Shown: one piece after another, positions 3,801 to 49,800 of the stretch
Layout of the letters: the number at the start of each line of letters is the position of its first letter
Numbering within the stretch: the first letter of the stretch is position 1
Source of the DNA: Gonapodya prolifera JEL478
Lineage: Eukaryota; Monoblepharomycota; Monoblepharidomycetes; Monoblepharidales; Gonapodyaceae
Length of the DNA: 64,000 bases
Direction: 5' to 3'
NCBI GenBank assembly: GCA_001574975.1
Contig: KQ965776.1
Location: 186,001 to 250,000 of the forward strand
Made by a program: the position numbers and the translations under genes
The notes under the pieces: model-generated
Databases searched by the model: none
The model's input: the letters and a program-made list of their open reading frames with translations, nothing else
What the model was told of the DNA's origin: nothing

Positions 3801-6800
3801 AACAACCCCGCAATGCCCAATGGGATTTGGCTGGTAGACAATGCATATTTCATTTAACGTAAGTTTTAAACGCGTTGTGATCGCGAAATCGTCGGCCAGA
3901 ACGATATCCTGGGGAAGCTTTGCAAACAACATCATATCTCGAAAGATGGCATCATTTCGTGGAACGCGAGCTGAGAGTCCCATAAGAGACAACGATACTT
4001 GTTGATCTTTCGTTTTGGCTTTCGAATCCGTGGCAGATGTGATCACGCAGGATATTACAGATTTCCCTCGACCCGCGACATCGGCAACTTGAAACGTGCG
4101 ATACACCAACGGATCTTCCAGAGCAGCGAGTTCATTCGATTGAGAGAAAGTGAAATCGGCCGCATCCACTGAGAGATAGGTCATGGACTGGTTTTGGGGT
4201 ACACTTGAGTTGCACATAACTCGTTAATTAGGAAAACGGCATACCTTTCCCTCGCATCCAGAAACACCAAATAATTTCGTGTCCTCCAATGCAATGGTGT
4301 AGGTTCCGTTTTTTGTCTTCCCATCAATTGCTTCTCCGGATCTGTTCTGAACGTGCCAGGTAACGTCAATTCTAGCGATCGAGAATAGTAAGGCCAATTC
4401 CGACGGTTTCACATCAGCCTCTGTGTCTGGACTAGATGCTGGCTGCTGGGGCGCTCGTTTGAGCGAGTCGTCAGGTTGTGGCCCGTCAAAGAGGCCCGCA
4501 TCGTTGAGTAGTACAACAAGCTTGTCAAGTTGATCCTTTGAGATATTGATCCGTAGAGACGGGATATTAGCATCAACAAAAATTTTCGACTCGAGGATAG
4601 ACTGCTCCCGGAACCGGAAGGTCTCCTCCTCGTCAAAGTTGTCAGCTCCGGGCATGCGTCTTCGAGCCACAAAAGGATCGCTCAAATCAGAACCTTGGCT
4701 GTTCCCCTCTCCATGTCCATGTTGTTCTCCGATATCAAACCAGGATTTAAACATCCACGCAGGTGGATCGTCTTCGGCGTCATCTTCATCATCGACTGGA
4801 ACTTGTACACGTCTCTGTGGTGACGTCAAGATGGCCTTCCTCCGGAAAATTTCAATTGTCGGAACATTGAAGCGTGCAGATTTGATTGGACAATTTCGCG
4901 GTACAGAATAAATTGAAGCTAGTGGAGTAATGTCTGATAACAAACGAACCAAGGTTTCAAAGGTGAAACGGTATCACAATTCAGGTAGATCCACTTACCG
5001 ACTTCCACTTGTGCAGGTAAGCCCGAATTAAGTCTCGCTCTCTCAAAAAATGATAGTCCGACTTCATCAACTTCCAATTTCCAGGCTGCAGTATCAGTTA
5101 TGCCCGGCATCCCGGATCTCCTATTTGCTAACCTCAAAGGACTGCGGAGGCCCTTGCCACTGCTGGAATCTTCACCGAGGGTGTTCTTCAACTTGAGAGC
5201 GAAGCAGTCAACTAGAAATCCAGATTCGCGCTCCTTTACGGTCGCGTCCTTTGGCACTACACTGAGCCAAACACGTATATGTGGCACACGAATGTCGAGA
5301 GACACATCCCGACGTGAGCGGGCAGTCTGCTTGGAAACTGAATCGTCGAGGTCTTCAATTATGTCCCGAGGTTCCCGATTTTGCTCAAAAGAGGACGAAG
5401 AAAGGTTGCTTTGATTCTTTTGGTCCCGGCGGCGCAACAACTCATTCCACCGATCAAATTGACCTGCAATTTCACGATGTGCGTGAACATGGATACTGGC
5501 CATTTTTACGAGTAACACATCCCGCCCCTCATCGCCTTCCTCCAAACTATGGATCCTCTCCCAAGTAACATGCATCGAATGAGCCATATTCGTTGAACTG
5601 GTGGCTGACTTCAAAGCTGGCTTCAGAACCTTCGCACCATGAGCGCCAATACTCGAAGATGATGGTGCACTATCTGACTTGGTGGATGTGACGCTACCGA
5701 CAACATCAAGCGATGACAGAGACGAATAGATTGTCTGAGCATTCGCCCCTTCTCGGGGCTCCAGAAACACCAACGGCGTATACTTTGGTCCTCCTCTAGA
5801 GCGCTCAAACGCCCGGCCACGGTCGTCCTCTCTCAACACCCAATCCGAAATGCACGCAGATTGAACCCAGAGCTCGACGTGATCACGCTCGGCGCCAAAC
5901 GTTCCCTTGACCCCAACACCCTTGACACGAATTAAGAAGTGGTCCTTGTTCAGCAATGTAGCAACAGTTTCGTCGTCGACTTGAGGCTCTTCACCACGGC
6001 CGGCGCACGCTTGGAGGAGTTGGGCTTGAGCTACAGGACCATCCGAATCGCGATGGAGCAGGAAGACTCGAACATCACGAAGGTTTGCGTCGACCCGCCA
6101 GCTTATTCCCTTCCCAGTGTGATGCGACCCTGTCGATGAAGGTACGGAGGGCGAGAAAAACGACACTTTCGGAGAGGATGATGCCGTCCACGTGTGAGAC
6201 TGCACTCCGGCAATAGTGACGCGGGACCGCTGTCTCCGAAACTGGCCGGCTGCGGTGACGGAGGACGCCGCGAGCGTAGATTGGGCGTCAAAAAATTGGC
6301 TGGCTTGAACCGAGCTTGTGGTGGACATTCCCATGCCCGGGGGCGTGTGGCCCTCGGGAGGAATTGGCATGGAGCTGCGTTCCCGCACGAGGTCGGCGAC
6401 TTCTCGCCACGCCGACTCGTCCGCAAGCGTCTCGAAAATCTCCGCCACAAGCGCCACGTCGGCTGGGTCTGCGAATACCACGACAGAGTGAATGAGAAGG
6501 TCAAGGTGGTATGACGCCGCTCCCGAGATTTGGCTTCGAGACCGGTTCACATTGAATGCAACATGGTTTTCGGGCCCAGATGCTAGTGACAGCAGCGTGG
6601 TCGACCGAACATAGGGGGCGTTATGGGCCACGCCAACATCGTCGTCGATGTCGGGAATGTCTGAACGTGGTAGTATAACATGCCCTCCTTTGAGTTCCGA
6701 AAGGGTCACTTGGATCCCACTGAAAGAAAGTAATTTTCGAACGTCCTGGGAGTCGAGGCGCGTCCCCGTAGCGTCTCCGGTGGCAGTGTCTCCCCCCGAG

Positions 6801-7737
6801 TTGTCAAAAAATTTCATATTCGGAACAGTCAGGTCAAGGTGAAACTCTTTCCAAGCACCCGCTTTCATAGTCTTGTACACGACCCGCAGAGTGATGTTTT
6901 CCAAGTTGACCTTCACTCTGGCAAGGATTCGGTCAATGAGACTCGTTACGAGAAGAAGTCCGTCGCTTCGTGGAGCTGATTTCGAAGCGCTTTCGTCTGC
7001 GACAGGGCCAGCGGACGCGATGGAGGCTGCAAGAGATTCGTCCAATTCTTTGTCCCTTTCAGTTGCGGCAAGGAAGGATGATGCAATGTCGGCAGTCGAC
7101 GTGGCGAGAGGAAGTGTAGAAAAGGCAGATTTGAACAGAACTGCAAGTGTTTTACGGTTATAGGGTTCATGAGCTTTCTAAAGGAGGGTCACTGCAAACA
7201 CGAAATGTTCTCTCACCATTTTGGGGGTCTTCGGAGAACGGCGCAACCTCCACCATCACATCCCGCACATCAAGAATAATGTCTCCGTTAAAGAGGTCCG
7301 TGCTCGGGAACGTCAAACTTATTTCACCGACACGACCGCCAGTTACGACGACTGGTATTGTTGCAGTGAGCTCATTGAGGACCTGTTCCGAAGCATTCCC
7401 GATTTAATGGAGGTTTCCAGAATGAGCGCGCACTCGGGAATGCACGCACCTCGACATTCAGCTTCAGATCTCTGAGTTTCATAGTTCCTGTGGCCAGTTG
7501 AACATCGACATTGTCGTATGTGAAGTCGTTTGAAAGGAACTGGCCAATGGCTCTCTGATTGGGGCGACGCCGGCGACGTTTTGTAGCGGCAATGCACGAA
7601 AGAAAGAGCAATTAGGGCTCTGAATGGACACAAGAGCGCTTCGCATCGCGGACCTTAACGACGAACGCAGCGACCTTCCGTTGGAAGTCCGGGGGTACAA
7701 ACGAGGCCGGCAGCTGAAATGGCCAGTAGCTGGCCAT
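871..7737 (-). CDS. ATG2: Autophagy-related lipid-transfer protein Atg2
   Basis: Atg2 is the rod-shaped lipid-transfer protein that bridges ER exit sites and the growing phagophore, working with Atg9 and Atg18. The start at 7737 gives MASYWPFQLPASFVPP, a typical Atg2 amino end. A 99-bp intron (7555-7653) joins it to 'RAIGQFLSNDF', the chorein-type N-terminal repeat with its 'NVDVQLATGTMKLRDLKLNV' strand. The largest uninterrupted part lies near 4919-7045. The C-terminal Atg2 domain is clear at 1000-2026: 'QIPGIVGGVTPVKSIVNLGQ', 'LVLLPVQSYKQDG', 'GAQSFARNTAMEALNL' and 'PMIGAADALGKTLLGLRNTL'. The coding sequence is split into a dozen or more exons by short introns. The last join (about 1000-1050) gives 'VAVLR-PMIGAAD', and the stop is at 871. 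It faces the NTPase gene across a 122-bp divergent promoter. The family call is very secure; some middle exon ends are not resolved. Confidence 0.95.
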
Positions 7738-16678: not shown

Positions 16679-19600
16679 ATGCAGCAGCATCGTGGCCATT
16701 GGGGAAATGGATCAGCACAGGGGACTCAGGGGCAGGCAACACCTCTTACTCCCGCTCAACTTCCACAACCAGTCAATCCGCACCAGCAGATTGAATTGGG
16801 ACAGCAACAAATGTGGCATCAACAATTGGTGAACCAGCAAACCTCTACCCTTGTTCTACCTCCTCAACAAGTCCACCACATGGCAGCAATGCCGTTCTCA
16901 GTCTTGCAACAACAACAATTTCCGCAACACCAATACCCTGTGCAATCCCAATATATCCAGCAGGTCCCTCTTTCGGCTCCGTTTGGGTCGAATCACCTCC
17001 TCCAGCAGCACCAACTCATGCCCAATCGGCTTCACATCCAACAAAATATGGGGCTTGTCTCTGCTCCCCCAACCACACAACGCCACGCAACTGCTAATGG
17101 CGCTACGGCAGGTGTAATAGCCGGCTCAGATGGACAACATCATCCGCGACCCATAGCCCCAGCCTCGGCTCCGTCGAAACGATCTTCGACAAAGAACAAA
17201 CCTCCCACACCGACACTTCCGAGCTCCACTTCGTCTGGTATCAAAAATCCCACTCAACATCCAGACGCTCCTCCTCCATCTAATTCCGCACAACCAATCC
17301 TGAAACCCCCGAAAGTCTCACCCAATCCCGGCACAGGGCGAGCCACAGCCGGCCCTGCTCCAGCCATTTCAGGGTCTACCGACGCCAATACGACATTCAC
17401 ATCTACTGGAACGACCGCTCCGGCGACAATTCGCGCGGCGGTCCAGAGCTCCCCATTCGTAGCCGGTACACGAGCCGTTCACCGTGAGTGACGAATGGTC
17501 CAATCCAGCTTCACGCCTGTGACTTAATTTGGGGCCGAACATTGGACAACTTTAACACAGCGTTGCTGCCTCCTCTTCAATCTCTACTACCTCCTGTGGA
17601 TCTTCCTTTCCGGTTCGCGTCGTCTGACCAAATTCGTTTGCGGGAAGCCGAGAGATACCTCGCTGCCTACTCGGCGCCAGAGGATGGACGAGCAAGAGCA
17701 GTGAAGGATGCGGTTGCCATAGTTGATGGGACATGGATGTGAGTGGAAAAGGCAGTGTGGCTCTCTGTTGAATGCCACTATGCCTTTGTTTGTCATTCGT
17801 GTGCTGACCATTGGATATTTCGTAACTCCATATGCTTTGGTCTTGCAGTCGTTTTCAACCTCCCCCATCCTCGAGTAAATCCAGATCTCTCCAAGCGCTG
17901 GATCCCCCTCTTCCGCCGCCGGAAGTGAACCTGTCAGGTCTAGCGGGTGCTATCGCTGGACCCAAAGTCAAAGCGGAACCTGAAGTGGATGTTAAAGTAG
18001 AAGGTACGAATATCCCGGCGCTGACATTGGAGAATATAGTCATGCTCTGTTATGCAGTGAACAGTCTTCCACTCTCTACCGTGCTCCCTCGACTTTCGTC
18101 TCTCCGCACTTCCTTCACTGCATCCCTTCCATCAGCACTCGTTTCTGGTACACTGTTGACACCAGTAGCGTCTCGTCTCTCCTCCGACTCTCAGGCCCCA
18201 TCCCTGTCGAGTAGCCATCGCCACACTCGTCCTCCTTCCCCGACCCCACCCAGCCATCCACCTCGGCCCGCTCAAGCACCTCCGCCACTTTTACCAAAAT
18301 CCTATGTCTCTGCCACTCCAACGATAAGGGTGTCAGGCCCATCCCGTGATCCGTCGACTCCTACAAAGCCGCCTGTAACTGCTTCTGGCGCGAACGGCAC
18401 CATTACCCCTTCCGCTAATCACTCGCACAAGACACCTCCTTCTGCACTCAAACGCATCCGCACGGAAGAGTGGCGTGGTCCTGCCACCAAGCTTGGGGAA
18501 GTGCTATCCTCTCTTATCGACACCGAGTCTGCTTATGATCCTTCTGCACCCGAACCGCCACAAGGATTCCGCGCCTCAGCAATGGGTGGCACGGATGGAA
18601 CTCTATTGCCGAGCCCGAGAAGTCTTCGGAGGCTTTCTGAAAGGATTGAGAAGGTTTTGGCAGCACGTGGTTTCGCAGAATGCCTAAAGAATACACCTGG
18701 AGCTGGAGAAGAAGCATGGTTGAGGGTTGTTGGATGGTGCAGCGGAGTTGTTGAAGAGTGCGGAGTCCTGGATCTGAGAGCATCCAAGAGGAAGGGAGGT
18801 CCAACGGACGACCTGGGAGAAGAAAAAGAGGATGATTATGAAGGAGATGAAGAAGTGGGGGAGAGGTTTCTGGACCAGGTGTCGAAGGAGAGGTGGGGTT
18901 TGGAGGCCTGCGTGGTTGCTTGGGGGATGATGGCTGGCGTTGCTGCGGGTGGCATTGCAGTGGACCAAGCTACAAGAAGGAAGGTGATTGATACAAACTT
19001 TGGGTTGCGACAGTTGATCTGGTGTGATAACGNTGAAAAGCTCCTCCCTGACTCGCTGCTCACTGCGACTCTCTCACTCCTCCAGAACGTACTTTCCTCA
19101 GGTGTGCTGCCAGCCCACCGCCATCTACATTTTGCCACATCAGCCGACACGGATACCCTCGCCCGCCCGTCAAACCAACTTCCCCGGCTACTTGCCACCT
19201 ATCCGAAACTGCGGAGCACCCTTGCAGATGTTTCGTCGCGACTCGCCGACGCACTTGGCCTCGTAGCTCGCTTGGTGCGAACTGGAGAGAGACTTGCCGA
19301 ACATCACGTGGTGGCGTGCTCATCACTTGCCGTTGAAGCTCTGCTTGGTGCCGCTGAGGGACGGACAAGAGAAGGCTGGACAGTTGGCATTGAAGGGGCG
19401 GCATCACCAGCCGCGGATCTTGTCGCGGCAGTCCTCCACAACTATCCAAGTTGTAGGGATGACGTATTAACAGAAGTTGTTGCCAATATGGCCAAGGCAG
19501 CCGAACTCCATGCCAGCGGTGGAGGAAAAAAGGGGGCCAGTGCTCCCAGGGCGTTCGTGATGCCCGATGGTAAATCGATATCAGCATACTCGGCAGCTGC

Positions 19601-22600
19601 CATGTTGTGTGCTCAGTGTGTTGGGGTAGAGATAATGGATGTGGTACGGGAATGGTGCGGCCTCCACGATGATGATTCGGATGTCGCTTTCATCATTGAG
19701 ATTGAGGAACGGTCGGGGAAGACCAAGAAGCAGAAGATTGAAGAGAACGTGGAAGGGGAGGACGAGAAAGGGAAGCTGGAAAAGGTGCGATCCTTGTTTC
19801 GGCGTTCAAAGATCGTGTGCCATATTTGCATTTCCTCGGTTCTTCGACTCTTCAGCTCCTCTCCGCAGTAAACGGGCCACTTGATCGGTCGTTTGCAACT
19901 GCGGCTCACATTATAAGGTACTTGGTTGTCCGGTCTTTACCTAATACAGAGGCACATGCATCCCCGGTCAAGCACAAACGGCGACTCGCCCACGAAGAAG
20001 GCAACGAAGTTGGTTTCAGAAAAGTGTTGGAGGAATTGATTGGGGACGCTCTCAAGTGTCTTGACGCGCCGGAGTGGCCTGCCGCTGAATGGATTGTTGG
20101 TGTTGCAGCGAAAGTAATGGTGAGTGTTTGTTGAGTTGTCCCGCATTTTGTCCATGCTGAAATAATCGACATTGCTATAGCTTCAATATCTTGACGACAA
20201 AAGAACTCCCGCGACTTTGGCGCAACTTTCAGTGGACATACTGGGTTCTATCACTGCGCGATTATACTCTCAGCGGAAAGAGCTGCTAGGAAACACTTGG
20301 GCTGCACAGGTACATGCTGCTCTCGCTGGCGAAGCTTATCCGAAGGGTAAGGAGGACATGCTTAAAGTTTGGGCAGTGGAGCGAAAATTGGATGCGTGGC
20401 TCAAAAAGGGAGAAGAGGAGGGAGCTAATGAGGTGAACGATAACATTTATTGGCGCCTAATTCATGCCACACACCTGCCGCTGACCAATATGTTTTGCTC
20501 TGCATAGTCTGCTCGAGCATTTAATCTCATGCATTGGTTGTCGGGCTTTGCGGGTCTGTTCCGTGACGGAAACCAGGCATCAATCGTCATTGAAAGCGAT
20601 GCTTTGGACACAGCGAAAGAGATTGCCATGGACTGCGCCGAGGCGCTGTCAAGTAGAAGAGGACGGTTAGTATATGTCAGTTTTCCTGCTCCAGACTTTT
20701 TTCTTGACGAATTACCGGTGGTGCCCAATTGTCAGGTCTTACCGAATAGACCTGCAACGAGAGGCGCAGAATTCCCCCCCACTTCAGTCGTTTCTTTCTC
20801 TTCTAAGCAACGAATCCGTACCTGGCACCCCGAGCAAGGTTTTCAACCCGACTGCTGCAGACGAACGCCCTTCTCTGAGCAACTTGATGGCAATACTCTC
20901 CTTTCGTGGATCTTTGCACCGATCCTGGGAGCATCTGCTGGGAAAATTGGTTTCATTGTTAGGAAGTGGGACTGTCCAGCTCCGAACCAAAGCTTTGCGA
21001 TCCTTGTCCGCCATCAGTAATATAGACAGCGCCCTTCTTGCCTCAGACAAAGTGCGGCTTGCTGTTGAGAGTTGCTTCACCGATGGTAGCCCATCAGTTC
21101 GTGATGCTGCAGTGGAACTCATCAGCAAATACACTGTTGGGTCTGGTGATACAGAAGTTACGCGGAACTATTACGAAGCAGTCGCATCACGAATGCTCGA
21201 TACAGGAACGAATGTACGGAAGCGTGTTGTCAAGTTCCTGAAAGATGCGTTTGTGCAGTTTTCGAAAGTTGTTTACGCCCAGGGTGAAGAGATCTCGGAA
21301 GAGGAACAGCAAGATACATTAAAAATGGTGGATGCTTCGTTTAAACTTGTGCGAGCCTCGGTGTTGGACGAAGAGGAAACCGTCAGAGATCTTGCACTCA
21401 AAAATCTCCAGGAATGTTGGTTCAACAAGTTTCAATTTGTTTCATTACCTCTCGCGGATGACAGTGCAGACGCTGAAATCAGTGGGAGAGGTGTTCCGAA
21501 GAAAAAGAAAGGTCGCGTGTCTGAAGCGGACCATGTCGAACACTCCATTGTTGGTGCCTGGAATTATTCTTCGATATCACCTCTTGGTAGGCTGGAAGTT
21601 GGACGTCGCGCCGCTGTAATTCAGCGAACTGCCGCACGTCTTCAAGCAGTCCGCTCGGTGGAGTATTTGGGCGATGTTGTGAAGAGATGCATAAAGGCTG
21701 GCGCTTTAAAGGATAGCGACGACACGGTTGATGTCGGGAGGATATGTCGAGTGCTTGCTGATCACTTGGTCGAGGAAGTAGTGAATGCTGGAAGTGAACG
21801 GGATTCCAAGGTACAGACTCACTCAGAACGATAGTGCTAGTCGTCGATGCTCAACCGCATTCATTATATAGGGCCGAGATTCCGTTCTTGGTTCTTTGCT
21901 CACGCTTCAGCAACTCAGCCGAGCGAAGCCATCGCTCGTGTTGCGACATGTAGTCACACTTGATATCTACCTTGAGATACCCGACGTGAGTGTGACGTTC
22001 GTGCAGGTCGACACGTTTTTGTAAACGTTCATTCCCACGATAGAATGGAGCCCTTAGCAAAGATGAAGGCGACATTATCTGTACCGTCTTGTTAATTTTC
22101 ACGGACATGCTACCTCGAGTTAAGCGTGCTGACCACACGGTCCTTAGCCGAATGGAAGATAAATTGCAAAAGATCATCTCACGGGTGCGAATATCTTTCG
22201 TACTTTCAGCAGCAGTCCCTTGTTTGTGCAAGCTCGTGGAGACACAAACCCGCAACTACGACCGTGTGGCAGAGGTTTTCGGTCGTGTTCTAGAGAGACT
22301 CTCCCAGCTTCGTACTGCAAATGAGAAAGCCCCTCTTTTCAGCGGAAATGCTTCTAACGCGGCCCCGGCGGTGGTGCGATGTCTTGCCATAATCGGTCTT
22401 GTTTTACGCTCCCTCGATTTGGACAAGCATTTACAATCCATTAAAGGTAAAGGCTATTATCTGTGAATGTGAGGTAACAGCTTTAACTGATGATGGTGCC
22501 GTTCAATAGACGAAGATTGCAAGGACCTTCTCGAGGAGCTGGGCGAGGTGAGTTCGGTTATATTCATTGGGTTAATTGAGTGCCGAAGGATCCATCCGAA

Positions 22601-24799
22601 AACGTAGAATAAGTCCTTACGACAAAGGGCTTTCCGCGAATGCATGGGCTTTACCGGATCATCAGTTCCAACGTTCGTCGCCGCTGCTGCAATTGAGGCT
22701 CTCGGTAAGTGCCTTTATTGGGTGGTGAAGTGATGCCACCAAAGACACAAACCCCGTGCTATCACGGCTCGGCGCCATCCATCCGAAATACCATTTGATA
22801 TAGGCAACATCGCCATTGGGCAGCCTTCCTACCTTGTTGATGAGTCTCTCCGAGAATTGATGGGTGGAGTCTTTGCTGGTGATGCGGTAGAACTGAAAGA
22901 GAAGGTACTAGGATGCTTTCGCGATTTTCTTCTCGAAGAGAAAGCAAAAACCTTGGAGGAGGATGTGGAAGATAGTGAGTTATATTGTCTCTGTTCCACC
23001 TTGAATCAAAGCAAACTAAATGCTGCACTGTCTCAGCTAAAAAGGATGATGCTCCTGTGGACCGGGAATTGCTTGCAGGTCGAACAGAGAAGCTTGGTGA
23101 AGCCGGGTAGGTTGTCAGCTGAGAAACTTTGTCGGCTCCTTGCTAATTTTCTTTGATAGCATTGCTCTGTCAACCATGCAACTCTTTCTTTCGGGCATTA
23201 CTGACTCGGCCCTGTCTTCAAATCAGAAAATTCGAGCGATTGCTTTTGACGTTCTCACAGCGATAGAGGAGCAAGGACTTGTTCCACCACCGCAAATACT
23301 TCCTGCGCTTGTTGCTATCGAGACTTGCGATGACTTGAGCCTAGGCCAACGGGCTCAAAAGGTCCACGGACGGCTTTGCGAAAAGTTCCCCTCACTTTTG
23401 AACCAGCTGACCGTATTTACGAAATGCATTGTCTCGGCATACGAGTTCCAATCAAAGTCTGCGCGAGACGGAAAAGTGTTCGGTGGGTATACTTTGGAAC
23501 TTGCCACTTGTGCTGGCCCTCATTGGCTCTGTTAGGTTTTCGGGCACTGGACTCCAGGCTCAGTTCATACTTTCAGCCAATGTTTGAGCTTGTGCGCCCT
23601 CGAAAGAAACCCCGAAACGATTTTCTCTATTCACTCGTCAAGATTGTGGACAATCAGTCCCGAGAAGCCGCGGACCAGGTTGACTTTACACTGGCTCGAT
23701 TCGTCGTGGAGTCACTGGCTACCCTTGAGTACAACACCCAAGAGGAAGTGCTCACGGTCATCCACTACATCAACCAAGCACTTGGAGTGACTGCTGCAGC
23801 TGTTGTTCGTTTCGCTGAGCTGTTAGAAGAAGGCGTCGGTGGTACTACAGAAGACGAGGCTCCACCAAATGTACCAAACTTGCAAGAAAGATTGAAAAAA
23901 GCTATGGGTATGTGTCCGAACTTTTCAGTGCAATTGTTTAGCTTACAAAGACCGAATTCTTTCAGCGGAAACCGCTATCTCGATTGACCTTGCAGCTAAG
24001 ATGTCTATCTGTATGGGTTACCTGCTGGCTCTCCGCAAGAAATACCTGCAAATGACGTATGATCTCAAGGACCAGTAAGTTAATAGAGCTCGCACAAAAA
24101 GAGAGAGAATGTCATAATCATACCGTTCCTTATAGGCGAGTGCTCCACTTTAAACCATCCGATGCTCCTCGAGCAACAGAAAAGATGATAGATAAAGCGG
24201 AAATTGTTTACCCAGTATCTGTCACTTGGGAGGAAGTGGAAATGCGCACTACAGAGGATGGTAAGAGCGTTGAATGGGACTTTGCGAATGACGAAGGGAA
24301 GGCCGAAGTGGTCAAAAACGTGAGTGTTCCAGAGGAAGACTTCCGGATTTTATCAGGGCAACTGACCATCTCTGCACCTTAGTTCCACTCCATGATACTT
24401 GCAGACATTGCCATTCTCGGCGAGGATGACATCGATCCCGTTTCGATCGGAAATCTATTTGGCGATGGCGACGGAGAGGCTGAAACGGCAGTCGAAGGAG
24501 GGGACGGAACAGCGCCTGCAGTTTCCGGGCCCAAAAAACGCGCACCGAAAAAGCGCGCACCTGCGAAACCACGAGCGCCAAAGGGGGCAGGGACGGCGTC
24601 CAAGGGAAGGAAGCAGGCCCCGTCCAAGAAACGTAAACGGAAAGAAGAATCCGAGGATTCGGCGGAGAGCACGCCAGAACGGGACTTTGACGATTCGGAC
24701 GATAATGATGTTGGGGTCGGGCGGAAAGTCACCCGAAAGGGAACTTCGACTTCTGCACGGTACAAGGAAGAGAGCAGTGAGGACGAACTCGTCGCGTAA
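16679..24799 (+). CDS. SCC2: Cohesin-loading HEAT-repeat protein Scc2/Mis4/NIPBL
   Basis: Scc2 with Scc4 loads cohesin onto chromatin. The first exon (from ATG 16679) is Gln/Pro-rich and disordered, as in NIPBL. The middle and C-terminal halves carry the family's HEAT array: 'LRSLSAISNIDSALLASDKV', 'CFTDGSPSVRDAAVELISKY', 'SRMLDTGTNVRKRVVKFLKD', and later 'MSICMGYLLALRKKYLQMTY'. The tail (24400-24799) is Lys/Pro-rich then acidic, ending EESSEDELVA. Intron density rises toward the 3' part: several between 21.8 and 24.4 kb separate small exons, while 17.85-19.87 kb is nearly continuous. One base, 19033, is undetermined (N) and leaves one residue ambiguous. The 3' end converges on the bHLH gene 209 bp away. 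The family call is secure; exact exon ends between 21.8 and 23.1 kb are approximate. Confidence 0.93.
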
Positions 24800-25008
24800 T
24801 ACGTTTCATCTCATTCCCACGACAGTTGTACATACGATACCAAGTAGAATAACATTCCATGACTCTGTTCTTTTGTATACAATTCGATTTGAAATTCTAA
24901 CGGCAAAACGAAAATTCGATCAAGCACTGTACTGTACGTTTTTGTTATTTGAAAAGTCAGCTTCTAAACGTCCGTCTCCCCTCCCCGTCGTCGTCGGGCT
25001 TGTCGAAA
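24800..25008. other. Convergent 3' spacer containing one copy of a 52-bp-offset direct repeat
   Basis: The spacer lies between the SCC2 and bHLH stop codons. It includes a near-perfect direct repeat of about 35 bp: one copy begins near 24963 and the other near 25015 inside the bHLH coding end. The rest is AT-rich, as expected of 3' UTRs. Confidence 0.6.
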
Positions 25009-25050
25009 TCAGCGTCTAAATGTCCGTCTCCCCTCCCCGTCGTCATCGGA
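24963..25050. repeat. Short tandem duplication at the 3' end of the bHLH gene
   Basis: Two copies of about 35 bp start near 24963 and 25015, a 52-bp offset, and differ at only two positions in the part I compared. On the minus strand both copies encode DDDGEGRRTFR, so the duplication repeats the last residues of the bHLH protein just past its stop codon. The close identity suggests a recent slippage or unequal-exchange event. Confidence 0.8.
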
Positions 25051-26971
25051 CCACTGGCCCGACTCATCCAGCCCGATATCCGTCGACTCCAACGACCCAC
25101 CTCGTCCCGACGTCTCGAAATGCGATTCATGCAGCGCACTACTTCGCAGGCCTCCGAGTCCCTGCCCTTGCCCTTGCCCGCTGACTCCGACTCCGGGGTC
25201 GCCATCGCCATCAAACGATATCCAGTTCGAAAAGTCCATGCCGCCGCCAGGACCCGCGACCTGGTCGGCGGCGAGGGAGTCCGCCGCCGACACGTTAGAC
25301 AGCGAGATGAAGTTGTAGGGCTGCGGGGTCCGCGTCTGCGGCACGACGCGGTCGCTTGTTCCCAGCCGACGAATCGGGGGTGGGGGTACGTGGGGAAGTG
25401 ACACGGACGGCGGGTGCGGGTGCGCGGGTGGAGAGAACCCCTGAGCGTTCGCGGCGCTCTCGGCGGCCGAGTCCGCGGCGTCGAGCAGGTAGATGGGCGC
25501 GTCGAGGTCCAGCTGGTTTGCGACGACGGACGATGGGGCCGTGGCGGCGTCGGAGGCGGGAGGAGGAAGTCGGGGTGGTGCGGCCGGTGGCGCTCGTTGC
25601 GGCATGGCGGTGTCGTGAGGAGCAGGGTGGGAGAAGGGCTGGGCGAAGCGAGGTGATGCTCCCGCGGCAGTGGCGCATCCGCGCTCGCGTGCGCGTTGGG
25701 CGCGAAGAACGTCGATCCGGGCTTTGAGCTCCTCAATTCGTTTCTGGTTCGCGCGGTCCGTGTCTTGGAGTTGCAGGACGTACTCGTAGGCTGCGGAGAA
25801 AGGGCCGTTTCAAAAAACCTGTGTGGAGAAAGGACGACCGGCTCATCGAGAGACAGAGGTCTGGGTCACCGTAACGTAGTCGGCCCAATGGCTGCGACAC
25901 TTCTCCAGCTGCATTCCTGTCAAGCCTCCGTGTGGTTTGTCGGCACGAATCCCGGTCTCCGTGTGTCCCATACCACTTCGCTCTCGTTGGCGACAATTCT
26001 CCAACACCATCCCCGTCTTCGCGTGTCCCATGCCACATCGTTTTCCAAATGATGTCCAGCTCATCGCGATATAGAGTAGCTTTGGTAGTCTGGGTCACCG
26101 TACTCCATCCCATTCCAATCTCCAACTCCATCCCTGTTCAGTCTCAGTGTGGTCCGTTCGTTGGTCGCGACACTTGTCCAACATTCTTGTCTTCCCGTGT
26201 CCCATGCCACTTCTCCGTGTGGTCCGTCGGGCTGAGGCTCCTGTCCAACTCCACCCGTGTCTTTGTGTGTCCCACTGCCACTTCTCCTGCCACGTGGCTC
26301 TCGTTGGGTGCGACAATCCTTTGTCCGGTATCCCTGTCCGGTCTCCCCGTGTCCCATGCCACTTAATTTCTCTCCAACCACCAAGGTATCACGACAGCTC
26401 CAACTAGAATGTTGAGACCGCGGAGTCCTCCCTCCGCTCGCATTGCTCGCACCGATCGGACAGCTCGGTCTTGCGTGCTTCGCACTCCATCCCTCGCGGC
26501 AACTCACTCTTTTGCAACACAAACAGCCTCGACGACTGCCCCGATACCCCGCTCGCCTCTGTCTGCTGCAAGACGTCTGGCACGAGCACGCGCAGGTCCT
26601 GAATTAGCTTTTTCAAGTCATTGCGTCGCCGCTGCTCGGCTTCTTTGTGGACGACTCTGCGCTGCTCCGAGTATGTGTCGAGGACGGGGGCGGACAGCTG
26701 CAGGGCAAAGAGCGTGCTACTACGCAGCGGTGGCAGTCGCCCGTCGCCCGTCGCACGATTGAAAAAGAAAGAACAGAGTTCGATTGCGGGATTGAGTGGG
26801 CCGTGAGTGCGGTGTGGCGAGGGATTGAGGCAGCAAATATCCGTGCACGCACTCGTTTGTCCCGTTGTTGACCTGAAACACCTGCACGGGCGAGATCTGG
26901 CCGTTGATGTTTGCAGCCAGCATGGGCGACGTGAGCACGCCGACGGGATGGACTGCGGGACTGCGCGACAT
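25009..26971 (-). CDS. bHLH transcription factor
   Basis: Three exons assemble into a basic helix-loop-helix factor. Exon 1 (26971 to 26882 or 26873) gives MSRSPAVHPVGVLTSPM. Exon 2 (26697-26508) gives 'EQRRVVHKEAEQRRRNDL', a basic region with the His-x-x-Glu-x-Arg pattern typical of E-box binders, then helix 1 'KKLIQDLRVLVPDVLQQ' and the loop. After a 717-bp intron (25791-26507), exon 3 (25790-25009) completes helix 2, 'RLFVLQKTYEYVLQLQ', and continues into a short coiled coil, 'NQKRIEELKARIDVLRA'. The rest is Pro/Ala/Gly-rich and low-complexity. Splice phases agree at both joins: phase 0 for intron 1 and phase 1 for intron 2. The closest resemblance I know is to fungal SREBP/Nuc-1-type bHLH factors, but target genes cannot be read from the sequence. 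It shares a 255-bp divergent promoter with the hydrolase gene. Confidence 0.82.
25800..26410. repeat. Degenerate repeat cluster filling the long bHLH intron
   Basis: Variants of a few short phrases recur here in one orientation. 'GTGTCCCATGCCACTT'-like blocks occur near 25960, 26020, 26195, 26262 and 26347. 'GTGTGGTCCGTCGG'-like blocks occur near 25930, 26147 and 26216. 'GTCTGGGTCACCGTA' occurs near 25859 and 26089. Spacing is irregular (about 60-180 bp), so this is a decayed minisatellite or scrambled tandem array, not a clean repeat. It lies wholly inside the intron that splits the bHLH domain. Confidence 0.65.
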
Positions 26972-27226
26972 GGCTCGCTCTCCTTCTCTTCTTGACGGGT
27001 TCTGCCGGCTGCGGTGGCCGGGTGATTTCGGAGGGCAATATTGGGCTAAACAAAGACTCAAATTGAACGCATATTTCCAGTCACGCTCGCTATGAAACTT
27101 CCCCATCCCCCGGATACAAGCGATCGCGCGCATGGCCGCCGTGCGGTCCCCTTCTGCATCGCGGAGCGGAACATGCACGTAGCTCCGTACTCCACACAGC
27201 ACCACTGGACGAGAAACACTGTGCCG
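26972..27226. promoter_or_regulatory. Divergent promoter of the bHLH and hydrolase genes
   Basis: This 255-bp gap separates opposing start codons at 26971 (minus) and 27227 (plus). It is GC-rich with no evident TATA box. Several frames are open across it, but none has a recognisable motif. Confidence 0.45.
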
Positions 27227-28429
27227 ATGGCTGCCGACTCGGAGATGGGATGGATCTACTGGCAGACCTGGTCCCGTGCCGGCACTGGCTCTGGCACTCC
27301 CAAAGGTATGCGCTGCAATTCTCTCGTGACTCTTCCACTCCTCGTTACTCAACTCTCAACGGCCTCGTCGACTCGTCGAATGCTATGGCGACAAAAGCCG
27401 ACGTTTTGTTCGTCCACGGCATCAAGGACTACGGCGGACGCCAGCCCAATCGCGGACTCAGGAGAATTGTGGACGAGGGGTACAGGGTCCATGCCATCGA
27501 CCTCCCCGGTCATGGCAGGAGTGACGGGATTCATGCCTTGTTTACAATGGATGAGCTCGTGCGCGCAGTGAGGCTCGGTTAGTTGAAGATGGCCTTTTTT
27601 CTATTTAGTCCCAAGATTCCACCTTGGCTAATACTGTCCGTCTGAAACAGTCGAGGCATCCATTCGGGCAGAGTACCTTGACAAACCAGAGTCTCGCTCC
27701 TCGAGCGGCAAGGTCATTCTCTGGGGAGCCTCACTGGGCGGCCTTGTCCTCTTCCTGTACACGCGCTCGCTCCTCTTCTCCTCCATCTCCTCCAGCCGCC
27801 AAGAAACCCTGCTGATCCTCCAAGCCGCCGCTCTCATCGCCAACCCCGAAGTCCTCCCCCCCGGCTGGGTCATCTCGGTGGGCACATACCTCGTCACAAC
27901 CTACCCCTCGCTCGCCCCCGTGCCATACGCCGAAGCCAACCGCGGCAAGAACACAAGTGACCCCGACGCCCAGCTTTATTTCGATCGGGATCCCATGGCG
28001 TACACGGGCCGCATCCGTCTTGGAGCTGGACTCGCCCTGCTGGGCGCGTTCGACCAAGTCGCCGCCGGACTCGGCACCGAGCGCGGGATCGCCGTCGGCC
28101 CAAAAGACGGGGACACCTCGGCGGACCTGCGCGTGCTGTTCCTCCACGGTGACGCCGACCGCGTCGCAGCTTTATCGTCCACGACGTCCGCGTACGCGGC
28201 GGGGGCGGGCGCGTTCGTTGCCGACCCGGCGCTCGCGAGTAAAGTGCGGATAGACGCGGAGAAAGTTGTGTACACTGGTGGGGTACAGCATGATATGCCG
28301 TCGGAGTGGACGAATGATCGGTGAGTGGGTCTTCGTTGTTGAGTACCGGGACACGTTTTGACATGTGAATTGCAAAGTATGGTATCCGATGTTATTGAGT
28401 GGATGAATATTAGAGTAATGAAATCGTAA
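27227..28429 (+). CDS. Alpha/beta hydrolase, monoglyceride-lipase-like
   Basis: This is a serine hydrolase of the monoglyceride lipase/lysophospholipase (Hydrolase_4) type, expected to release fatty acids from monoacylglycerols or similar esters. Four exons (27227-27305, 27398-27577, 27651-28320, 28378-28429) keep frame and give 326 residues. Visible features in order are an N-terminal 'WIYWQTWSRA' strand, 'VLFVHGIKDYGGR' (oxyanion HG motif), 'AIDLPGHGRSDG', the nucleophile elbow 'ILWGASLGGLVLF' (GxSxG), a C-terminal 'RVLFLHGDADRVA' supplying the acid, and 'GGVQHDMPSE' with the likely catalytic histidine. No signal peptide is seen. It is followed 102 bp later by the Bta1-like methyltransferase on the same strand. 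The fold and triad are secure; the substrate is inferred. Confidence 0.88.
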
Positions 28430-36610: not shown

Positions 36611-39600
36611 ATGCTATGGCATGAAAATCTCTCCGCGACCGTCAGCAACCTATGGTGGCTTTTGCGCGGATTTTACCTGGGAGTTGCTGTCCTTCTAATC
36701 GTGGAGCTGCTTGTGTTTCGTCGGCTGTTTCAACCATCCGAGCGAATACGGGAAGAAACATTGGAGGAAACGGGGGTGAATCTCGATGAAGGAGACTACC
36801 CCGAAACCATCGTCAAGTTTCTTCGCGACGCATGTTCGCCTTCAGACATTGTTAAAGTTTCAAAGTGCGTTCCATCTATTGGACTAGCGATAGGAGACTA
36901 TTGACAAGTTTCTCTGAGTAGGGGGGAGGTTGATGCGACAGAGCGCGAGAGCTGCTCTTGGATCAATGTATGGATACACCGCTGGTTTCTGGAGTTGCGA
37001 CGATCTGCCCTCTTTCGAACTCGCATATGGTTCGTATATCATCTCTCCCATTCCCACTTAGAACTTTTGCGGAGCAATTTCCACCAATTTAGTCTGAAGC
37101 TACTCAAATTAATTGCGCCCAAACTGGAGACGTGGAGTTTATTGCAAGGATTGACCATAACAGAGTTTCGCTTCGGGGACAATGCGCCAGTTTTCCATAC
37201 GTAAGCGTTTAAACATTCGGATTTAATGGGCGATTCGTTTAATCATAGTGTTGGCAGGGCGAGAGTCAACAAAGCATTCTCGTCGCATTTGGAATGTGTC
37301 GTGGAGCTTCAATTTACATACAGTGGAGGAGCAAGTTTTGGCATTGAAGCACTCGTTCCCGGAGGTATTGCCATACCTGTAGTCGTAAAGATATTGGGAA
37401 TGAAGGGCCACGTTAGTTTCGCCATTCATTTGCCGTTTGTCCGTTACCTCACCTCTGGGCAGGCGTTGCTAAAAGTTCCTGGCAGAGATTCGATACATCA
37501 AGCACTCTCCTTCACACATGATACAGTTGCAGATTTTGACGTGCAATCCAGCCTGTTTCTTGGCGAAAGGGATATCCTGAAGAACGCAGTCACAAAGTTC
37601 TTGAAGCTCGCTGTACATCAAATATTCCGCGACTTTTGGTGAGAGCCAAGGATGGTGTGGGCATGCATCGTTTTGGTTGGATCGTGAAAGTTCATCGCTT
37701 TAGGATATATCCATCTTGGAGAGACCTAGAGTTGCCACTCATAAGCCGTAAACCACTTGAGTAAGTTCCAATACCCTCAGAAAATGTTGGCGACATTTTC
37801 TAACACGATTAAAGCCCGGAAAATTTTCCTCTCCTGATGGGGGTGCACAAAGAATTCCGCGATGGCAAGCAAATGGCGACTGTATGGTCGAGCGGCGAGT
37901 ATACCTCGCGTCCTTTCCCTCCTTTAGGGCTTGACATTGGATCAGCGGCACCAAAGCCAGAGCAGATTTCCAGGACTTCCATTCCTGATGTGCTGGAAGG
38001 CTGTACATTCTCTGTTGCAACTCAACTTGATCCTCAAGCATCCGTTATGGATTTGGAACAACGACTCACATATACCTGTGTACGCTTGGTGAAAGAGAAA
38101 AACTCGCCATCCCCAGAAGGCTGGCGGACATTCCGGGAAAAGGATGGAATCTTGGTGGAGAAAAAACGAGTTCAGGTGCCACCAGCTCGAGGGCAAAGAT
38201 CGGCGCTTGTGGGCATTTCAGAGTTTACAAGAGCGCATTTTGTATCGCGGGTTGCACCGTCAGATCTGTTTAAGATTTTGCGCCAGTCAGAGCATTTGCA
38301 GGCACGATACCAACCCGACATGAGTGTGGTAAGTTCACCATAAGACAATATTTGGACCCTATCGTTGTCTGACTAAGAGTTCTCTGCAAGACGTCAATCG
38401 AGCGACATTCATTCGCCCCAACGCAAAGAGTTCAAACTGTCACATTCTTGGAAAAGAGAAAAGGTTCTCAGCCCAAATCGGTCACAGTACTGGAGATTGC
38501 TGGACGAGTGACCACGAACGCGTCGTTAGCGCCATTAGAAGAAACTACGGGGTCGGTTCCCCAAAATTACGTCATTGTGTGCAGGTTAGTTCGCGTTGAA
38601 TGATTTGGGTTCCTTCCTTTATTTCATAAAAGTAGCTAGGTCTGTTGGATGGAAAAGGCATGATGAGGCGGCTTCAGTGGTTGCAAATGACTACAGCAAC
38701 GAGGTAGAACCATCTCCACTCCCCTCTGTTTCAGATAAACTGTTCCCGGAAAGTCTGGAGCGCGAACTGTCCATGTCATCTGATGAAGAATCGCTTGATG
38801 ATGATGAGTTTGAGAATGACAACCGACCCGCAGTGCTGCCCTCAGATAATCTGACTTCGAACCAAATGCAGATGGATGCTATCTCCGCGTCAATAGAATC
38901 ACTGAAGCTGGACTCAGCTTCGACAATTGATGGTTCGCTTCCGTTAAGCACTGCAATGTCCTCGCCCTCGCCTTTTATGTCGCAAAGCACTCCCTCGACT
39001 TCATCAATCGGCTCTTCTGAGTCTCTTTCAGAAACTGGGTCTATTAGAGGACGTCTCGGTTTGAGAGGTACTCCTTCGATGTATACAGCTCCTCCAGCAG
39101 TGCATATGATGGGTTACTATTTGGAGTCGCTGCCAAACGATCCGAACGCCACGAGCGTGACATGCATTTCACAGTTCTCAAGTAAGGCACTCGCAAAAGC
39201 AGAAGTAACTTTGGAGTCATCGAAGTGAGTCAATATCCCTTTCCAATGCAGAATGACAACTACCTATCTTTCCTTCCTCCTGTGTTTTATAAGAGCTCTA
39301 CGTGATTTTCTACATACACTTGACAGCTTTTTGAAAAGAGAAGGGCAACCGGGTGACTCTGCCAAAGGGACAACGGGAAACCTCGAGTCCGACGCACGAT
39401 CAGGGAATGTTGATGGACTTAGAGCAGGAATTGGCTGGACCAAGCAAAAACTAATGTCGTCGCGGACCGCGAGCTGGTTGTACGGACGTCGTCAGGATCC
39501 TGGCGCAACAATTCCGTCCCCATCACCATCGTCCTCCGTTTACTCCGCTCCCGACACTTATTCGGAAAAGTTTCTTTCATGGAGGCAGAGCGCCAACTTT

Positions 39601-40484
39601 GACTTTGTTGTGGAAAGTGATGATGCAATTATGTTCGATTTGGAGTGTGAGTTCCATCACTTATCGAGGAAGCCACCCATTTTGAATATATCCCACACAG
39701 GCAATCTCAAGTCGGGCGAAGGAGGTGAGACACTGCCGAGCGACCAAGTCATTCGCGAGCAATTTTACATCCGCTGTGATAGTTTTGTGTCAGATTGTGG
39801 TGCTTCCTCGGACTCAATCACCACCGTGGAGCCTCCTGGCAGCCACCAATGATGGCTTAAAAACAATCTTTCCCAATATCGCTATTTGCGGATCTGAATC
39901 ACCTACCAGAGTGCAAATCCCTTTGCGAAATCTTTCGGGGTCCCTACTTGCAATTTGCTTTGAAAATTCCTTTGCCGGAAAACGGGTCCCGAAATCCGTG
40001 TACCATCGTTGCAATATGTCTCTTTCTACTTCGACCAGACAATTCGTGGAAACAACCGTATTCTTGGCTGCGAAATCTACTTGGCATATTCCAATGGTTC
40101 AGCAAGGGGGACAGGAGAAAGAAGGACCCAAACTATCCTGGAGCTTTTCCACAGGTAAGGTGCTTCTATTTCTGACAGTGTTACCTTCCGAGAAATGCTT
40201 GTTTTGCAGGTGGCCTCGATGTAATTTTTGGTGTTCTGTACACACCAGCGCCTTCCGCCACACCTTCCTCGCAGCCACTGCAGCTGGCTGACCCTTCTGT
40301 AAGGCCGAGTTCAAATGGTCATGTTTTGCAACTCATACCAATGGTGAAGGCAAATGCAATTAAGGAACGAGTGGTGACAGGGAACGTTGATGCCAGCAAC
40401 CCCGGAGTATATAGCGTTTGCTTTAGCAACGTGAATAGTGTAATTACCGGACGTTACATTAGTGTTAGAGTGACGCTTGAATGA
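36611..40484 (+). CDS. ER-anchored SMP-START-GOLD lipid-transfer protein
   Basis: One gene appears to encode four modules. First is an N-terminal membrane helix ('FYLGVAVLLIVELLVFRRLF'). Second is an SMP domain: 'ESCSWINVWIHRWFLELRRS', 'LTITEFRFGDNAPVFHT', 'ECVVELQFTYSGGASFGIEA', 'DFDVQSSLFLGERDILK', ending 'YPSWRDLELPL', as in tubular ER-contact-site lipid carriers. Third is a START-like domain from about 38040: 'PEGWRTFREKDGILVEKKRV', 'FTRAHFVSRVAPSDLFKILR', 'TSIERHSFAPTQRVQTVTFL', 'VGWKRHDEA', then after an acidic Ser-rich insert of about 130 residues 'MMGYYLESLPNDP' and 'ATSVTCISQFS'. Fourth, a C-terminal GOLD-like beta-sandwich: 'LSWSFSTGGLDVIFGVLY' and 'NPGVYSVCFSNVNSVITGRY'. Introns near 36866, 37203, 37642, 37759, 38330, 38585, 39225 and 40155 keep frame across these joins. 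About 39800-40000 is not resolved. The predicted role is lipid transfer at ER contact sites. Confidence 0.72.
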
Positions 40485-40578
40485 TGATTGTTCGCTCCGA
40501 TCTGCCGACGATCGTTTTGGGATATGTCTGAATTCATGTTTTGCAACATATAGTGCCAGCCTATCGCAGCACGCGGGC

Positions 40579-46873: not shown

Positions 46874-49800
46874 ATGGCCCACACATTCTCTCTCCATGCC
46901 TTGACGCCCGAGGCAATCGCGCAGCTCGCAGCGCTACTCGTGCGCATCTCCTCATCCGACGCCAACACGCGCACCCCCGCCGAGAATGAGTTCAATCAGG
47001 CTCTTCTCGACGGATCCCAGGCACCACTCGTCATTACAGGTCTTGCCAACCTCTGCAGGACCCACTCAGACCCTACGGTGTGTTGCTGTGTGCTCTCGTG
47101 CCCGGATCGCAGAAAAAAATCGTGACCTCTGATCGACGTTCATGCTTTGATTTGACCTCCAGTACCGCTCACTCGCCTGCATTCTCCTCCGCCGAGTCGC
47201 GTTCAAGCGCGCAGCGTACGTCCAGACCACCGGCTCCTCCGAAGAAGAGGTTTCCCAGTGGATGGCCATAGGCGATGACGCCCGTTCCTACACCGAGCGT
47301 CAGCTCCTTGATTCGCTCGCGGGAGAGTCGGACATTGCCGTAAGACGAAAAGTCAACGATACAATCTCGGATCTCGCCCGACACATTCTTGAGAAAGGGG
47401 GTGAGTACCAAGGACTGGTTGTGGTGAACCTGACGTGGAATCATGTGGAAGAGTGGTCCGTTTCACAAGGAGTGGAAAAACGGTTCGCTCGCTCGCTCGC
47501 GACATTCATGCCGCCAAAATCTGTGTCCTTTCACCTGGAGAAGAGTTTCTTCCTCGAGTGTGGACGCCCAAATGGTTTTTCGTGCTTGGCCTCCGTCGCG
47601 AGCAACATCAAAACTGGCTTTCTCCACGCTGGTCGGCCATCAATTGCCCCCACGCCATCTGGCACTATTTTTAAGCCAAACATTTCCATCCGGGGATTTT
47701 TATTCTTTCTCGTGCACTTTCTTGAGACACTGACACCACACCCTAATCTTTTCCCAAGGTGTCTGGCCCGAACTCCAACAAGTCGTTGCCGCCGCCACAA
47801 AATCCTCCGAAGCAGGCCACCGCGAGTCGGGCTTCAAGGTCCTGGGCACCACCCCCGAGCTGATGGAGACGGAAGACCCCGTCATGGTCCGAGGTCTCAT
47901 CGAGAGCGGTCTCACCGACTCCGATTCCCACGTAGGTCCACAGTTCGTCGCGACGCCACACGAAATTGGTCACTTGTCGCTCACGACCTCCCAACTTACG
48001 CAAGGTCCGCCTCGCCGCACTGCACACCGCGGTGGAGTTCTACAACAACAGCACCGACGACGTGCGCAAGCACTCGTCGCACCTCATCACGCGCATGCTC
48101 GAGACCCTCCCTATCTGGTACAGCGCGGGGGACGACGACTCGCTCGGCACGGCGTTCCAGTCACTGCTGGACCTTAACTCGCACTTCAAGGGGCTTCGCG
48201 CCGTGCTGCCGAACTTGGTCGAGTTTTGCGTCACCCTGTGCAAGAACCAGGACAATTCGTTTGAGACTCGCCAGATGGCCGTCGAGCTCCTCACGAGCGT
48301 CGCGGAGGAGGAGCCCGCGATGGTCCGAAAGGTGGCAAACTTTGCCGCCGGGATCGTGCCCGTGCTCCTCGAGTGGCTCCAAGATTTGGAGGAGGAGGAA
48401 GCTTGGCACACATCCGATGATGTCAGTTTTGCCAGAGTCTCTCGCATTTAGTTATTTCTCGTTGGTTCTGAAACCGTTCCGCCTTTGCACTCTTAGAACT
48501 ACTACAGCGAAGAGCCATCGGCGGACGCTGCCGAAGAATACCTCGACCGCCTTTCACGATCGCTCGGCGGAAAATCCGTTCTTCCAGTCACGTTTGCAGC
48601 CATCCCTGCGCTGCTGAGCAGCAACGAGTGGAACAAGCGCCACGCCGGTCTCATTGCCATTTCTTCCATCGGAGAGGGATGCAAGAAGATCATGAGCCAA
48701 GAGCTCCAAAACATTCTCAAGTTCGTCGTTGCACTCCCGCGATTTTAAATTCACGACCTCACCACTCTTTTTTTTTTTTTTCTTCCACTCGTCGCAGCCT
48801 CGTCCTTCCCCACCTCCGCGACCCTCACCCTCGTGTCAGGTACGCCGCGTGCCAAGCCGTCGGACAGATGTGCAACGACTTCGCGCCCGACTTGCAGAGC
48901 AAGTACCACGCCGTCATTTTGCCCCAGCTCATTCCCACCATGGACGACACGAAGAACCCGCGCGTGCAAGCCCACGCCGCGGCGGCGCTTGTCAACTTTG
49001 CCGAAGAGGCGACAGAGGACGACGTCGCGCCTTACCTGGACGACGTTGTCGTGCGTCTGATGGGATTGTTGGCGTCGCCAAAGAAGTACGTCCAGGAACA
49101 GGCCTTGACGACTCTGGCGACAGTTGCCGATAGTGCGGAGAAGCAGTTTGCCAAGGTTGGAGCGTGTTCTCTTGTAAATTGCGTAACGACATGGCTTACC
49201 CTTTTTATTTTTGTGCAGTTCTACGCGCAGATTATGCCGTTGCTTTTGAATGCTTTGCGACAGGGTGTCGGAAAGGAGTACAGGCTTTTCCGTGGAAAGG
49301 CGATGGAATGCGCTTCGCTGATTGCGCTCGCTGTGGGGAAAGATCTTTTCCAGGCCCACGCCGCGGAGTTTTGCCAGCTACTTGTGGAGATTCAGAGTGC
49401 GTTTGGAGCCCTCTTCATTGCTTCGGTACCAGCCGTGGAACCAATGTTTTAATACTCTGCTCTTCGCTTTGTTGGCTAGACTCCATCACCGATAGCGACG
49501 ATCCGCAGGGGCAGTACCTTATCACAACTTGGGCTCGGGTTTGCCGTGTCATCGGAGACGATTTCACTCCATACCTCGCCATTGTTATGCCTCCTCTGCT
49601 CAAGTCCGCTTCTCTGAAACCCGACTTCACCGTTCTCGAAGGTGACGAGGACCCCACCGAGCACTTTTCCGAGGAGGACGGCTGGGAGTTTGTCAAGGTC
49701 CAGAACCAGAACATTGGAGTGCGAACATCCGTTCTAGAGGAGAAGGCGACCGCGATCGAGATGCTGGTCTGCTACGCTAGGGATTTGAAGGGCAGGTTCC

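Follow-up and report, generated by a model that had tools for sequence, protein, structure and literature searches.

The gene at positions 36611-40484 of the window (the whole stretch of DNA that was analyzed, 64,000 nt) raises the question whether a membrane anchor, an SMP domain, a START-like lipid pocket and a C-terminal GOLD domain can belong to one polypeptide, as a preliminary description of this DNA had proposed. Both the limits of the gene and the frame-preserving splices given there hold, as all 11 introns have GT-AG ends and are 54-69 nt long (Table 1). The gene appears to be real, of a fungal type, and to encode one membrane-anchored polypeptide; with introns this short, the window looks eukaryotic. 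Codon usage, scored with training frames of which some have no Pfam match, is of little help, the predicted frame being the top one in 10 of 12 exons by small margins.

Table 1. Features of the SMP/START-like/GOLD gene (nucleotide positions in the window; aa, residues of the predicted protein)
Feature	Positions	Strand	Remarks
SMP/START-like/GOLD gene	36611..40484	+	12 exons, 11 introns, 1074 aa + stop
Exons 1-6	36611-36864, 36922-37029, 37093-37200, 37258-37638, 37704-37760, 37815-38328	+	
Exons 7-12	38391-38584, 38640-39224, 39294-39646, 39701-39724, 39783-40154, 40210-40484	+	
Hydrophobic N-terminal anchor, aa 13-41	36647..36733	+	hydropathy maximum of the chain
SMP domain, about aa 79-300	36845..37752	+	PF10296, Mmm1 5yk6; spans introns 1-4
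Intron 5	37761..37814	+	GTAAGT donor over stop, CTAAC 15 nt before end, in-phase AG
START-like region, about aa 376-760	38032..39372	+	suggestive profile tests; spans introns 6-8
Ser-rich acidic insert, aa 553-694, within START-like region	38680..39105	+	composition
GOLD domain, aa 972-1071	40118..40472	+	profile 24.4 bits; spans intron 11

The N-terminus is hydrophobic, as had been claimed: the best 19-residue hydropathy window (2.23) covers aa 17-35, and an Arg-containing stretch follows the hydrophobic cluster. The SMP domain is likewise firmly confirmed, and by sequence comparison it is of the Mmm1/PDZD8/TEX2 kind. In particular, Pfam PF10296 matches the N-terminal piece at aa 84-171 (35.9 bits) and the full chain at aa 84-170 (31.2 bits), both above the curated cut-off of 21.9, and in a PDB search the solved Mmm1 structure 5yk6 is aligned to aa 79-297 (E 2.5e-5). 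Z-scores of local alignments are 18.8 for Mmm1, 14.8 for PDZD8 and 13.6 for TEX2 (approximate comparison sequence), none of 500 shuffles being as good in any of the three cases. Rab7 entries in the same PDB search (E 1.3-1.7) were treated as chance matches.

The predicted GOLD beta-sandwich at the C-terminus is well supported, though it stays under the Pfam threshold. The profile of SEC14L2/3/4 and ACBD3 on which Table 1 relies gives E 1.6e-9 for this domain, the search space being one sequence, and none of 306 E. coli segments, taken forward and in reverse, does as well in global alignment (Z 4.69). Pfam GOLD_2 reaches 18.3 bits (E 0.0029), under the curated cut-off of 28.4, and in the phmmer search of the C-terminal part against PDB the chains of ACBD3/GCP60 are on top, with E-values (0.26-0.43) that are non-significant taken alone. 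A second GOLD domain, guessed by eye at aa 823-945, finds no support (Z 0.33, with 123 of 350 decoys as good).

The region between the SMP and GOLD domains is the one where the preliminary description, which had placed a START domain here, stands in part. A START-like (helix-grip) fold is plausible and somewhat more likely than not, the profile comparisons being mixed. The profile built from 11 START sequences is in its favor: with the insert removed, 3 of 2000 shuffles score as well as the region does; in HMMER it is equalled by none of 122 E. coli segments and none of the 122 reversed ones; in global alignment (Z 3.5-3.8) the corresponding numbers are 0/122, 1/122 for reversed segments and 1/300 for shuffles. 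These joined tests are flattered, because the limits of the segment were chosen, and the insert removed, with START in mind. When the halves are tested apart, not being joined over the insert, Z is 2.64 for the N-terminal half (matched by 3 of 200 decoys) and 3.30 for the C-terminal half (by 1 of 538), each in its own register, while against the wrong half of the profile both are at the chance level (250/538 and 90/200).

The best single matches are the bacterial START protein 3qsz for the N-terminal half (as good in 0/300 and 0/500 shuffles) and STARD5 for the C-terminal half (2/300 and 1/500), a member of the STARD4/5/6 group. Most START sequences taken singly show no signal: among the 11, at most 15 of 300 shuffles are as good for one sequence in the case of the N-terminal half and for four in the case of the C-terminal half, one of these four matches lying outside the expected register. 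In an hhalign comparison the region has P = 0.0086 with a low probability, 4.7. The AlphaFold2 model of exon 6 alone, with a mean pLDDT of 37, is too poor to bear on any claim. Unlike START domains, the region does not keep the Pro-Arg-Asp-Phe stretch in the alignment and contains a long insert; moreover, proteins of the STARD4/5/6 group and 3qsz have neither SMP nor GOLD.

Against these results stands the possibility that the chain has the anchor, SMP and GOLD, and that its middle has some other fold that binds lipids, or is a spacer domain peculiar to the lineage, between SMP and GOLD. We regard it as possible, though less probable than a START-like fold. It agrees with the database searches, as Pfam at E<=10 finds no family in the region with or without the insert, and thus no PF01852, and phmmer finds no match in PDB. 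It also agrees with the behavior of the enlarged START profile, which was meant to strengthen the START assignment and weakened it instead. Against this profile of 38 mostly bacterial sequences (the 11 above and 27 bacterial rows, 24 of the 27 being over the Pfam cut-off and one entering only as a 43-residue piece), 7 of 109 E. coli proteins score as well as the region, as do 45 of 1000 shuffles and none of the 109 reversed proteins. Over the 27 bacterial sequences, the two halves reach a mean Z of 0.96 and 0.54. As to particular folds, PRELI has some support from the N-terminal half, which is somewhat similar to PRELID1 (7 of 500 shuffles as good), but the C-terminal half shows no PRELID1 signal (244/500), and PITP finds no support in either. 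What favors the START-like reading over a different middle domain is the preference of both halves for the correct half of the START profile.

The acidic Ser-rich insert reported within this region is evident from composition. Within the limits that we set, Ser makes up 22.5%, compared with 10.4% elsewhere in the chain, Asp and Glu are enriched, Lys is poor, and there are six S/T-x-x-D/E and five S/T-P sites. A role as a regulated lid or phospho-switch, suggested earlier, is possible.

The arrangement is probably a combination of domains new to the SMP family of lipid-transfer proteins. In the literature searched, no protein with both SMP and START is described in the portions consulted, including those of PMC10341546, PMC10648710, PMC5486777 and PMC8667587, so the claim that the pairing is otherwise unknown is uncontradicted within that scope. 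Searches for relatives found none in prokaryote genomes, where seven stretches matched a pattern, nor in viral contigs, where one search returned 13 stretches and another none.

Mmm1, a component of ERMES, is the closest of the three SMP proteins tried, and it likewise has an N-terminal hydrophobic anchor followed by SMP. However, Mmm1, which has specific motifs of its own outside SMP, lacks accessory C-terminal domains (PMC6069729), while here about 770 residues follow the SMP domain and include GOLD and the START-like region, so that the protein is not an SMP protein devoid of such domains. PDZD8 consists of an anchor, SMP and a long C-terminal extension (PMC6069729), as does the protein studied here, but it differs in having PDZ and C1 domains, neither of which is found in our protein by Pfam at E<=10 with HMMER filters on. 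Pfam at the same threshold also finds no C2 domain after SMP, as would be expected of extended synaptotagmins and tricalbins, and no PH domain. The latter precedes SMP in TEX2/Nvj2, whereas here the SMP match begins after just 83 residues.

SEC14L1/5 resemble the protein in their C-terminal GOLD, with CRAL/TRIO in place of SMP and without an ER anchor. The resemblance extends to the presence of two lipid-transfer domains of different superfamilies per chain, provided that the START-like assignment holds; in SEC14L1/5 these are PRELI and CRAL/TRIO (PMC5507252, section 4.7). The same section lists, as chains with multiple lipid-transfer domains, paired and triple StAR-kin domains, CRAL/TRIO with PRELI, and LAM with DUF3074, SMP with START not being among them.

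Wideman et al. (2018) reported, beside Mmm1, PDZD8, Nvj2, Mdm12 and Mdm34, a further SMP paralog, as yet without a name, that is confined to flagellated fungi (PMC6069729). Like that paralog, our protein seems to have an SMP domain outside the named branches and may come from a similar lineage. The two could tentatively be identified with each other, which is a question of naming and is compatible with the preferred reading of one chain with a START-like middle. The adjacent gene bears on this: downstream lies an acetyl-CoA synthetase gene, a piece of which, with exons joined by eye, has 88/139 identities to 5ifi, 90/139 to 7kdn and 86/139 to 7kq6. To be about equally far from all three of these solved fungal enzymes would be in keeping with an early-branching fungus, but no flagellar gene was recognized among the 30 open frames scanned in the window, which does not favor the identification. 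A natural chain with SMP and a START-like domain would give possible content to SMP paralogs so far known as branches of a tree (PMC6069729).

Whether SMP belongs to the same gene as the remainder depends on intron 5, because later parts are bridged by exon 6, carrying the post-SMP linker and the beginning of the START-like region, and exon 9, carrying the presumed last helix of that region and the lead-in to the C-terminal part. Were the chain broken at 39.2 kb, one of the two places considered earlier, the START-like region would be severed ahead of this helix. At the other place, 37.76-37.84 kb, a stop followed by a new start is formally possible. Left unspliced, the SMP part would end at the stop 37762-37764, and ATG 37837 follows 72 nt on; the resulting frames are both open and would be complete, the first (303 aa) encoding an Mmm1-like protein with anchor and SMP, the second (764 aa) a protein with the START-like region and GOLD. 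Mmm1 itself ends shortly after SMP, and the genome tolerates close neighbors, as only 94 nt (40485-40578) separate the stop of this gene from the ATG of the acetyl-CoA synthetase on the same strand, a compact arrangement; for the same reason the spacing of genes decides nothing between one gene and two.

However, the stop on the SMP side sits within a consensus splice donor, GTAAGT; CTAAC, which resembles a branch point, and an AG in phase 54 nt on come after it, and the length of the intron is similar to that of its neighbors. This combination, which was defined after intron 5 had been seen, occurs at only 9 of 47,536 simulated stops (order-1 Markov model) and at 5 of 1925 real stops of the plus strand (intron 5 included), with 0 of 1959 on the minus strand. 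Two adjacent genes are improbable, and SMP and the remainder very likely form a single gene. As for the polypeptide with all modules, the anchor, SMP and GOLD are well supported, and the START-like pocket is plausible.

Taken together, the whole reading has in our estimate an even chance of being correct: a single gene for an SMP lipid-transfer protein, probably anchored in the ER, with GOLD at the C-terminus and, between SMP and GOLD, a probable START-like pocket interrupted by the insert. In the likeliest working model, drawn from domain content, the protein is an anchored transporter at a contact site, to which the C-terminal arm would add recruitment and lipid recognition. The anchor would fix the protein in the ER, and the SMP tube would carry glycerolipids across the contact site. 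GOLD could recruit a partner protein or membrane on the opposite side, and the START-like pocket may bind a lipid more specifically, either sensing it or acting as an additional carrier, with access to the pocket possibly governed by phosphorylation of the insert. The stricter version, in which an ER-anchored SMP bulk conduit and a selective START pocket act in series, with the phosphorylatable insert as a gate and GOLD for docking, is rather unlikely. If true, the protein would be a contact-site transporter complete in itself, with the selection or sensing of lipids built in, and it might belong to a fungal lineage that branched early. Why lipid-transfer domains share one chain, and whether they act in series or regulate each other, is described as not directly studied (PMC5507252, section 4.7); in a natural chain with SMP and a START-like domain, these two possibilities could be tested by deletion of each module.

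Elsewhere in the window, Pfam matches at E<=0.01 were obtained for 10 of 30 selected open frames, the other 20 giving none. The matches include two parts of ATG2, a part of Nipped-B, a C-terminal helicase part, HEAT repeats, Toprim and ING. The plus-strand open frames 17826-19868 (681 aa) and 47151-48614 (488 aa) have no Pfam match at this threshold, and neither Rfam matches nor tRNA were found within the window. The segment 24300-29600 is richer in G+C (0.578 for 24001-28000) and holds numerous long open frames that overlap one another on both strands, with one weak methyltransferase match. On the minus strand, 1992-2831 and 4922-7177 match ATG2_CAD, one with 87.0 bits (over the cut-off of 50) and one with 35.3 bits (below it), so a second lipid-transfer gene, ATG2, is located about 30 kb from the SMP/START-like/GOLD gene.
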